A stretch of DNA of 32,536 nt from Microcaldota archaeon (GTDB taxonomy: Archaea > Micrarchaeota > Micrarchaeia > Micrarchaeales > Micrarchaeaceae). Position numbers and translations under genes: made by a program. Below are positions 2,492 to 5,102 of this stretch, piece by piece (positions within the stretch are counted from its first letter, which is position 1; each line of letters starts with the position of its first letter). Where the stretch lies: the NCBI GenBank assembly GCA_021848125.1, contig JAJZMY010000032.1, forward strand, positions 1-32,536. The letters run 5' to 3'. The notes under the pieces are model-generated. The model made no database searches and was not told the origin of the DNA. It worked only from the letters and a program-made list of their open reading frames with translations.

Positions 2492-2595
2492 TTAGATTAT
2501 CTTATCCTCATTGAGTTAGCTTCTACTGCCTAAGGCTAATTAATAGTTAATGTTAGAATTAAACTTATTCCTCATATAAATTAATAGTTAAAGTT

Positions 2596-2702
2596 TGATA
2601 ATTATAGTTCACTGGAGTTATATTAGATAATTATCAAAAATGATAATTAACAAAAATATAAATACCTTTATTTTTAATATTAATTATCAAAAATGATAAT
2701 TA
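2596..2702 (+). promoter_or_regulatory. AbiE promoter with two identical palindromic operators and a half-site
   Basis: Two identical 22-bp palindromes lie at 2628-2649 and 2681-2702. Each has the arms TAATTATCA and TGATAATTA around an AAAA spacer. They are 53 bp apart, about five helical turns. A third element at 2596-2604 is an exact copy of one arm, TGATAATTA. A TATA-like box (AAATATAAAT, about 2654-2663) sits between the two palindromes, so a protein bound there would cover the promoter. The second palindrome ends on the first base of the probable ATG of abiEi (2702). AbiEi proteins are known to bind paired inverted repeats in their own promoter and repress it; that this happens here is inference. 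Further upstream, at 2538-2550 and 2579-2591, there is also a 13-nt direct repeat, AATTAATAGTTAA. Confidence 0.8.
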
Positions 2703-3319
2703 TGAATTCTAATAATTTTATAAATAAATTAAATGAATTGCATCTTGGAGTTTTTACAGACACTGATGCAAAAAAAATTATAAATAAAAATCAAAATTAT
2801 TGCAATCTTTATCTTTATAGACTTGCAAAAAAAAATTATATAATAAGGATCAGGAAGGGATTATATGCATTAAAAGAAAGCAGCAAATTTGAAATTGCAG
2901 GATCAATTATAGCAAATTCTTACATAACATCACTTGCTGCATTGTTCTATCATGAACTGGTAAATCAGGATCCGAACTTTATAGAAGTGGCAAATACTAA
3001 ATATTCAAAAACTTTGTACATAAAAAAAGATTTTGGCGCTATAAATATTGAATTAAAAAAATTGCCTAAAACTGCTTTTTTTGGATATTACAAAACAATG
3101 GGAAATATTGGAATGTTTTTCATTGCAGAACCAGAGAAAGCAATAATAGATATATTGCTTTTACATAATGAAGATTTACTTTCTTATGTAGAAGATGTAA
3201 TGAAAGAGCATAAAATAAATATTAATAAAGTTTTAAAATATGCTAAAATAACAGGGAAAAAATCAATACATGCAAGCATTATTAAAATTATAGAAAAATA
3301 TGAAATAAATATAGTATAA
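2702..3319 (+). CDS. abiEi: AbiEi-like antitoxin / autorepressor of a type IV toxin-antitoxin system
   Basis: About 205 residues. The N-terminal ~55 residues read as a winged helix-turn-helix (DTDAKKIINKN, LYLYRLAKKNYIIRIRKGLYAL), and the 'R.RKGLYAL' wing is typical of AbiEi-type regulators. The remainder (GSIIANSYITSLAALFYHEL, then FFIAEPEKAIIDILL) matches the usual antitoxin C-terminal domain with its 'A.PEKAI.D' element. An upstream in-frame ATG exists at 2693, but it lies inside the operator palindrome; ATG 2702 is preferred. The stop is 13 nt before the toxin start, giving a classic antitoxin-first operon. In known systems AbiEi counteracts AbiEii without binding it directly and represses the operon. 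Family identification is from sequence motifs only. Confidence 0.85.
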   Translation: MNSNNFINKLNELHLGVFTDTDAKKIINKNQNYCNLYLYRLAKKNYIIRIRKGLYALKESSKFEIAGSIIANSYITSLAALFYHELVNQDPNFIEVANTKYSKTLYIKKDFGAINIELKKLPKTAFFGYYKTMGNIGMFFIAEPEKAIIDILLLHNEDLLSYVEDVMKEHKININKVLKYAKITGKKSIHASIIKIIEKYEINIV

Positions 3320-3332
3320 TTTGGGAGCTAAA

Positions 3333-4544
3333 ATGTTAGATATGGATGCATTGAAAATATATTTGCAAGAACTTAATATGCAAAATATATGGCAGGTTGA
3401 GAGGGACTATATGCAACATGTAATCCTTTCTGCAATCTATTCGAGCAAAGAAGCTGTAATAGGGGCTAATTTAGTATTCAAGGGAGGGACTGATTTGCAA
3501 AAACAAAATATTATAGATAGATTCAGCATTGATTTAGATTTTACATCTAATTTAAATTTTGAAAATTTAAAGAATATTTTAAATTATGTAAAAAAATATT
3601 TGGAAGATCTTAATATAATTAATACTTATTCAATAGAAAAAAATGAAAAATCAGTTAATGTAAAATTTACTATAAATGGACCTGCATATGAAGTTAAAAA
3701 ATCAGACAATGCAAAAGTAGTAATAAGATTAGAAATAAGTTTACGGGAACAAATTATTCTTGAACCTGATAGGGGTACAAGAATAGTGCCAGTATATAAA
3801 GATATTAAACCGTATGTTCTTATTTCTATGGATATAAGTGAAATTGCTAGTGAGAAAGTTAGGGCAATAATAACAAGGAATAAACCGCGCGATGTCTATG
3901 ATTTGTGGATTTTGATAAAAAAAAGATACGATATATATGAATTTTTAGTAAGAAAAAAATTAGAAATATATGATATGGCATTTGCGTTGGATGAATTTAT
4001 TGAGAGAATGGAATTAAAAAGAATGGAATGGAATAGTGAATTAAAAAATTTATTGAATAGCTTTTCAGGAAATAATATAGATATGCCTGATTTTGATGCA
4101 GCAAAAAATGATATAATTAATTATTTTATAAATAATATAAGCATTAGCTTTGAATTTAATTTAAAAAATAATAAAAAAGAAGCAGCAAAAAATGAAAAAA
4201 GTTTAAAATTCCAATGTAATAAATTAATTGCACTCACACAAAAAAATGTGAAAATAACTGAATCAGCAGTATATCCTAATTTTAATTCAATACTTATTGC
4301 ATTTGCATATAAAAAATATAAAGCACTGTATCTTATTATAAATAAACATGGGGCTTCAGATGACGACGCAAAAAAAATAACTTTGGAATCAATTTGTTAT
4401 CCCATTACAACACAGAAAATTGGATTAAATATAGCAATTAAAAAGAATGGAGGATTGAATATCTGGTTACTTGCAGCAAATTCAGAATATAAGAAAATTA
4501 ATGAAAATATAGTTATTAATATTTTGCTAAAAGCTGTTGAGTAA
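3333..4544 (+). CDS. abiEii: AbiEii-like nucleotidyltransferase toxin with C-terminal extension
   Basis: About 403 residues from ATG 3333, chosen because GGGAG lies just upstream; an in-frame TTG at 3321 is less likely. Residues 49-69 carry the nucleotidyltransferase signature: FKGGTDLQK followed by RFSIDLDF, giving the G-G and D-x-D residues of the polymerase-beta fold. Around residues 180-200 comes the AbiEii hallmark SEKVRAI...KPRDVYDLW. These toxins transfer nucleotides to a target such as tRNA; the target here is unknown. Typical family members are near 300 residues. This one has about 130 further residues (about 270-403) with no recognised motif. It is the downstream partner of the AbiEi antitoxin. 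Confidence 0.87.
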   Translation: MLDMDALKIYLQELNMQNIWQVERDYMQHVILSAIYSSKEAVIGANLVFKGGTDLQKQNIIDRFSIDLDFTSNLNFENLKNILNYVKKYLEDLNIINTYSIEKNEKSVNVKFTINGPAYEVKKSDNAKVVIRLEISLREQIILEPDRGTRIVPVYKDIKPYVLISMDISEIASEKVRAIITRNKPRDVYDLWILIKKRYDIYEFLVRKKLEIYDMAFALDEFIERMELKRMEWNSELKNLLNSFSGNNIDMPDFDAAKNDIINYFINNISISFEFNLKNNKKEAAKNEKSLKFQCNKLIALTQKNVKITESAVYPNFNSILIAFAYKKYKALYLIINKHGASDDDAKKITLESICYPITTQKIGLNIAIKKNGGLNIWLLAANSEYKKINENIVINILLKAVE

Positions 4545-4640: not shown

Positions 4641-4670
4641 GACGAAACATTATTTATGAGGAAATTAAAT
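4641..4670 (+). repeat. 30-nt repeat over the transposase leader and start codon, copy 1
   Basis: These 30 bases, from GACGAAACATTATTT through the ATG at 4656 to AGGAAATTAAAT, recur on the minus strand at 32506-32535 with one mismatch. Just upstream, AAATGTT and AACATT flank CTCGACGA as a small hairpin. The repeat probably marks the end region of one mobile element family. Confidence 0.85.
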
Positions 4671-5102
4671 TTAAGAAAAATGAGATGGATAATAAGGAAA
4701 ATGAATGAAGGAAATATATCGGTATACCAAATTGCAAAGCAACAAAATATTACTCCGAGATGGTGCAGGAAACTTTACAAAAAGCTTTCAAATACGCCAC
4801 TATACAGAATAAAAATCAAAAGACCAGGAAGAAAACCGAAAGAAATTCCAATAAATGAAATAAATAAAGTGAAAGAAATGAAGCAAATGTATGGATTTGG
4901 TGCAGTAAACTTAGAGTGTGTTTTAGACAATATTGGCATGCATATTCCACATAATAAAATACACAGAATTCTAAAAGAATGCAATCTTGCAAATAATGAG
5001 CCTTATGCATTGGTTTGTATATTCTCTCGCTTCAATCAATGTTATATATTATTTTTTGTGTTTTTATCTTGCACTTTCATATATTTCTGCAATTCCTCTT
5101 AA
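4656..5102 (+). pseudogene. Truncated DDE transposase, N-terminal helix-turn-helix part only
   Basis: The first ~115 residues resemble the DNA-binding part of IS481-type/retroviral-integrase-like transposases: a resolvase-like helix-turn-helix (GNISVYQIAKQQNITPRWCRKLYKKL), a basic GRKPKEIP linker, and a second motif (YGFGAVNLECVL, HNKIHRILKECNLANNEP). The catalytic DDE domain should follow, but after about base 5000 the frame continues into unrelated hydrophobic sequence and ends antisense to the next gene's 3' end. I therefore read this as a remnant whose meaningful part stops near 5001. The exact family is uncertain. It lies just after the toxin-antitoxin pair, fitting a mobile accessory island. 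Confidence 0.75.

Follow-up and report, generated by a model that had tools for sequence, protein, structure and literature searches.

Two identical palindromes stand ahead of an abiEi/abiEii-like gene pair in the window, the whole 32,536-nucleotide stretch of archaeal DNA analysed here. This arrangement raised the question of whether the AbiEi-like antitoxin reads them as the operator of its own operon, and whether the autoregulation known from bacteria has been carried over to a TBP/TFB-type promoter. An enrichment of AbiE in DPANN archaea has been reported (PMC12988326), and a literature search, confined mostly to papers outside subscription, found none on an archaeal AbiE operator or its regulation. 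The features of the locus, in which the intergenic region 2492-2701 precedes the gene pair, are listed below.

Coordinates of the AbiE locus and its predicted control elements in the window
Feature	Position	Strand	Remarks
Isolated half-site TTTGATAATTAT, exact copy of an operator arm	2594..2605	+	12 bp; probably accessory or chance
Upstream operator O1 (predicted), TAATTATCAAAAATGATAATTA	2628..2649	.	abuts the presumed BRE, separated by 7 bp from the TATA box
Presumed BRE (TFB recognition element)	2650..2656	+	inferred from position only
TATA box TATAAATA	2657..2664	+	between O1 and O2
Downstream operator O2 (predicted), identical to O1	2681..2702	.	over the transcription start expected at about 2683-2690, into the start codon
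abiEi-like antitoxin/repressor gene	2702..3319	+	205 aa; first of two co-directional genes
Recognition-helix codons, residues 31-43 (NYCNLYLYRLAKK region)	2792..2830	+	helix H31-43 in the AF2 model
Codon of residue 36 (Leu)	2807-2809	+	covaries with an operator base
abiEii-like nucleotidyltransferase toxin gene	3333..4544	+	403 aa; PF08843, PADLOC AbiEii
C-terminal extra toxin domain, mainly beta	4089..4541	+	strands predicted from residue 268

The product of the first gene showed the AbiEi-type architecture of an N-terminal winged helix-turn-helix (wHTH) and a C-terminal domain, and matched PF13338 (1.3e-8, above the cut-off) and, over nearly its whole length, the PADLOC AbiEi profile (9.8e-24). 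While a PDB sequence search gave nothing useful, a Foldseek search with the AF2 model (mean pLDDT 96, 64-row alignment) found matches, the top one being the Streptococcus agalactiae AbiEi 6Y8Q (E 4.5e-9, 204 columns). The second product was identified as an AbiEii/DUF1814 nucleotidyltransferase by PF08843 (5.5e-25, 89 bits against a cut-off of 22.5) and PADLOC AbiEii (2.3e-58), and carried the invariant residues G51 G52 T53, D67, D69, K175, R186, D187 and D190 of the GGT, DxD and R-D-x-x-D motifs; its Foldseek matches were TglT/MenT3 and MenT4. The two genes are arranged in the AbiE order, with abiEi ending at 3319 and abiEii starting at 3333 in the same direction, and an AbiEii gene was found 3' of nearly all AbiEi homologs examined. 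By all sequence and fold tests run, except the NCBIfam equivalog cut-off missed by the AbiEi-like protein (20.7 vs 150 bits), the proteins are members of AbiE, a type IV toxin-antitoxin system, in agreement with the sequence-only reading, which had named an AbiE locus.

The extra C-terminal domain of the toxin had no match in Pfam, and the fold search yielded nothing convincing for it. Similarly long toxins, of 390-407 aa, were also present in the window's clade (L010, L018, L060 and L070), and the other archaeal AbiEii examined were mostly 245-275 aa. As for the antitoxin start, position 2702 is the codon where the AbiEi proteins of homologs begin and is the one best backed by them; an in-frame ATG at 2693, inside the downstream palindrome, is the alternative, giving 208 aa.

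O1 and O2 are perfect 22-bp palindromes of the form TAATTATCA-AAAA-TGATAATTA (9-4-9), lying 53 bp apart from start to start with a gap of 31 bp. When the local intergenic region was shuffled 5000 times with its dinucleotides preserved, no identical pair of 22-mers with 9-bp arms appeared. The two were the only 9-4-9 palindromes within the 32.5-kb window; as shuffled windows contained 0.73 on average, a lone palindrome of this type is unremarkable here and the significance rests on the pair. No further copy at up to one mismatch was found across the 776-kb genome assembly. Since the best-supported start codon is that at 2702, O2 ends exactly on the A of the ATG. The sequence-only reading had described twin identical palindromes at this distance, flanking a TATA element and ending downstream on the probable start codon, and all three points held. 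The homologs and the helix covariation described below make it very probable that both serve as AbiEi operators of a TATA-type archaeal promoter.

This assignment was supported by conservation before archaeal homologs. Single-protein scans of genome and viral contig collections had returned no relatives; these came to light through searches of whole genomes and a query with an alignment, which yielded a first set of 80 AbiEi upstream regions from the same archaeal order and a pooled set of 172. The core ATCA-N1-5-TGAT was present in 35 regions of the first set, compared with a mean of 2.05 and a maximum of 8 in shuffles and with 2 of 228 control regions; in the pooled set it was found in 74 of the 172. 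It usually adjoins the BRE/TATA box, the archaeal operator unit being a compact palindrome of 16-22 bp, and it also precedes homologs in Woesearchaeota, Aenigmatarchaeota, Pacearchaeota, Thermoplasmata and others. When palindrome length was tested by shuffling at each locus, 35 of 80 reached p<0.05. Because such per-locus tests were only moderately significant in AT-rich DNA, we relied on the cross-locus core, the spacing and the covariation.

The sequence-only reading had staked itself on similar repeats before close homologs, and the closest complete homolog (L060/L101; 41% identity), from a different family of the same order, indeed repeats the whole layout, with twin TTATCAAAAATGATAA, TATAAATA between them and the downstream copy at the ATG. 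The centre of the upstream palindrome precedes the TATA start by 17 bp in L101 and by 18 bp in the window, and the downstream centre lies 10 bp before the ATG in both, the extra 9-10 bp of L101 falling between TATA and the second palindrome. Twin palindromes also straddle a TATA-like box in L106/L070 and L108/L017, and these loci form one supported clade on the tree together with L010, L116 and L020. Fewer than half of the loci carry twin copies, and in other subfamilies of AbiEi the palindromes differ or none was detected.

The distance between copies was examined by comparing the operator at each locus with the remaining sequence of that upstream region, a second copy being counted at 80% identity or more. 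A second copy was detected at 12 loci; it lay 62-63 bp away in nine, 53 bp in the window and elsewhere in the remaining two. L242 and L244, which are among these nine, came from the held-out set of 45 homologs, which were fetched after the spacing rule had been written down. As 62-63 bp corresponds to about six and 53 bp to about five turns of B-DNA, both sites would be on the same face of the helix. In a scan of mean identity over all offsets, 62-63 bp led the discovery set with a z of only 2.4 and took third place among the held-out loci; this mean profile is blunt because most loci have a single site, and the spacing claim thus rests on the loci with clear second copies.

Covariation pointed to the protein that would read the site. 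Among the first 60 residues of AbiEi, position 36 was the most informative on the operator base beside ATCA. Where this base was T on both sides (n=55), residue 36 was Leu in 48 proteins, Thr or Val in 3 and another residue in 4; where it was A on both sides (n=12), Thr or Val occurred in 11 and Leu in 1 (Leu/T and Thr-Val/A, Fisher p 7e-9). All four Ile36 proteins had mixed half-sites, one with A and one with T. On a tree built without the columns of the recognition-helix/operator covariation, the residue changed in the same direction in a mean of 3.6 of the four supported independent pairs and in the opposite one in 0.0 (median p 0.125). As four independent pairs are too few to reach 0.05, the covariation is strong but not conclusive; it is nevertheless the best evidence that the antitoxin itself would read the palindrome.

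The isolated arm that the sequence-only reading had placed 45 bp further upstream was also considered. An exact arm is present, its 9-bp core at 2596-2604 lying, start to start, 45 bp upstream of the arm that it matches at 2641, while its statistical support was weaker than that of the pair: shuffling of the 136 bp upstream reproduced the 9-mer in 41 and the 12-mer in 1 of 5000 cases. No counterpart was seen in the upstream regions of L101/L060 or L106/L070. As a third operator it was rejected, as the implied centre would lie 45 bp from that of O1, or 4.3 turns, out of register with the other operator spacings.

The position of the operators relative to the promoter bears on the direction of regulation. 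The operator centre preceded TATA by 24 bp in 16 loci, by 26 bp in 9 and by exactly 9 bp in 10, the last overlapping the BRE (L239, L237, L243, L244, L245, L262, L269, L147, L200 and L204); in a further group the operator covers the expected start site, some 30-33 bp downstream of TATA. The positions over the BRE and over the start suit repression. At 24-26 bp the position does not fix the sign of regulation, because archaeal activators can also act there. AbiEi could accordingly be imagined as a two-way switch, activating from the upstream site by recruitment of TFB/TBP when antitoxin is low and repressing from the downstream site when it is high. Indeed, 24-26 bp before TATA, just upstream of the BRE, is the commonest position of single operators, the TATA octamers at these loci are near-consensus, and activators of the TFB-RF1 type act just upstream of the BRE (PMC5937170). 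However, a strong TATA box requires no activator, the operators centred 9 bp before TATA or lying over the start site at other loci fit repression, and the characterised AbiEi proteins cited here are all autorepressors (PMC3985639, PMC7319586). We regard this switch as unlikely.

Negative autoregulation is the simplest account, because of the operator positions in the window and the proven autorepression by bacterial AbiEi. From the computed genes, repeats, conservation, spacing rule and helix-operator covariation we infer dimer binding, cooperativity, repression and the transcription start as follows. The winged-helix antitoxin would bind each 22-bp palindrome, probably as a dimer whose recognition helices would sit on the two TATCA/TGATA half-sites. 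Two bound dimers would then occupy the same helix face, one against the BRE and the other over the transcription start, and might jointly exclude TFB, TBP and RNA polymerase from the enclosed TATA box, by which the operon would repress itself. The cooperativity of AbiEi is suggested by helical phasing only. Taken as a whole, the reading of the palindromes as the AbiE operator, bound by cooperating AbiEi dimers in negative autoregulation of a TBP/TFB promoter, is in our judgement probable.

A reader other than AbiEi alone, either another host regulator or the toxin-antitoxin complex, would be in keeping with the frequent participation of toxins in type II systems. A global regulator is unlikely because the genome holds no other copy at up to one mismatch, residue 36 of AbiEi itself covaries with the site, the AbiEi gene of L108/L017 keeps twin operators without a neighbouring AbiEii, and the S. 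agalactiae toxin contributed nothing (PMC3985639); this explanation is thus very improbable. The downstream palindrome might instead act in translation control, as a hairpin in the 5' leader RNA that hides the start codon, the upstream copy being incidental. The lone 22-nt copy does fold with an MFE of -5.9 kcal/mol (z -3.7) and reaches into the ATG, but z fell to -1.6 with flanks and was -1.0 in L101. Moreover, much of the first arm would be untranscribed because the expected start site falls inside the palindrome, in most homologs the element lies upstream of TATA and outside the transcript, and the helix-operator covariation requires a protein reader, which leaves this alternative barely credible. 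An origin by chance, from low-complexity AT-rich sequence or from the remains of a mobile element can practically be dismissed, since, although the intergenic DNA is very AT-rich and an IS-like fragment lies downstream (4656-5102), the pair was absent from all 5000 shuffles, recurs before homologs of several phyla, including GC-richer genomes, and shows fixed spacing and covariation.

The preferred reading, autorepression by AbiEi dimers, was then compared with known systems. In S. agalactiae, inverted repeats are the sites through which AbiEi represses its promoter (PMC3985639), and this system resembles the present one in the bicistronic antitoxin-toxin order, in the fold of its wHTH antitoxin (Foldseek 4.5e-9) and in two inverted-repeat elements located over the core promoter and start site near the first gene. 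Its operator is a single inverted pair of the 23-3-23 form, TGTTGCTTTTA-N27-TAAAAGCAACA (PMC3985639). The 23-bp half-sites with arms TGTTGCTTTTA are separated by 3 bp on a -35/-10 promoter and each binds one monomer (PMC3985639; Hampton 2018 as cited in PMC7319586). In contrast, each element in the window is itself a compact palindrome, with the core ATCA/TGAT and 9-bp arms spaced by 4 bp, and the two copies lie 53 bp apart on either side of a TATA box; two 23-bp inverted half-sites spaced by 3 bp over -35/-10/+1 were not found there. In Mycobacterium tuberculosis, several repeats likewise overlap the promoter before the gene of the AbiEi-type antitoxin Rv2827c (PMC7319586), but there four 23-bp repeats form two pairs; 13 bp separate the members of a pair and 4 bp the two pairs, binding shows negative cooperativity, and no ATCA/TGAT core was reported (PMC7319586).

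As the 23-3-23 operator and the four 23-bp repeats both differ from compact 16-22-bp palindromes duplicated at 53 or 62-63 bp, the layout was not carried over from bacteria. The sequence-only reading, which had expected the same layout around an archaeal promoter, was thus very probably correct in proposing an AbiEi operator on such a promoter, as the homologs in several phyla and the helix covariation indicate, and incorrect in its geometry. Among archaeal regulators, repressors that block TATA/BRE or RNA polymerase, such as those of the TrmB family, are similar in placing a bacterial-type wHTH on a TBP/TFB promoter (PMC4158304); they are not toxin-antitoxin systems, and paired sites spaced by a set number of turns were not established here for them. 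The Sulfolobus antitoxin VapB14 shares a role in transcriptional regulation, while it is a type II antitoxin of an unrelated family (PMC10127717).

The AbiE kind is already known, and the archaeal operator arrangement is a new variant; at the level of sequence, the predicted operator is real, conserved and testable. A more specific version, which we put forward only tentatively and consider somewhat doubtful, is that archaeal AbiEi would clamp or loop the TBP-bent core promoter through twin palindromes whole helical turns apart (five here, six elsewhere), with specificity largely set by residue 36. It includes a pair that brackets TATA in the window's clade and lies wholly upstream in other archaea, and a code in which Leu, Ile or Thr-Val at position 36 would read T, mixed or A next to ATCA. 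If the operator reading as a whole is right, Micrarchaeota, Woesearchaeota, Aenigmatarchaeota and others would share an operator open to testing, a rule for its spacing and a specificity code of a single residue. The same autorepressor family would then act at TBP/TFB promoters through its own operator geometry and not a bacterial copy, and archaeal AbiE promoters and their partners would become recognisable from sequence.

Several further observations were made on the locus and its relatives. Directly upstream of the AbiE locus, tandem small ORFs (1418-1759 and 1780-2178) share the near-identical stretch AMFNPLV[AT]NEISNKLDELKKDKNEIIRYDAEYIET and form a partial tandem duplication, their ends being different. 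An archaeal 16S rRNA gene, cut by the window start, occupies 1-722 on the minus strand, divergent from the AbiE side. The ORF downstream at 4656-5102 resembles the N-terminal part of an IS transposase and is apparently truncated, Pfam giving only weak HTH matches. At L108/L017, the twin operators before the AbiEi gene are 62 bp apart and no adjacent AbiEii was found; this AbiEi is possibly an orphan antitoxin or a solitary regulator. Different palindromes near TATA were observed in three further groups of AbiEi loci (L031, L034, L036, L053, L055 and L099; L033, L038 and L045; L039, L052 and L058), the forms seen in the other subfamilies being TATAAC-AATATA-GTTATA after TATA, AGGTTATA-AATA-TATAACCT containing the TATA box, and an ACC(A) type. 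The genome of the window (G000) encodes two more AbiEi relatives, at C4:1588-2160 and C31:76026-76550, and the former is preceded by a different palindrome, ACCATAAATGTGGT.
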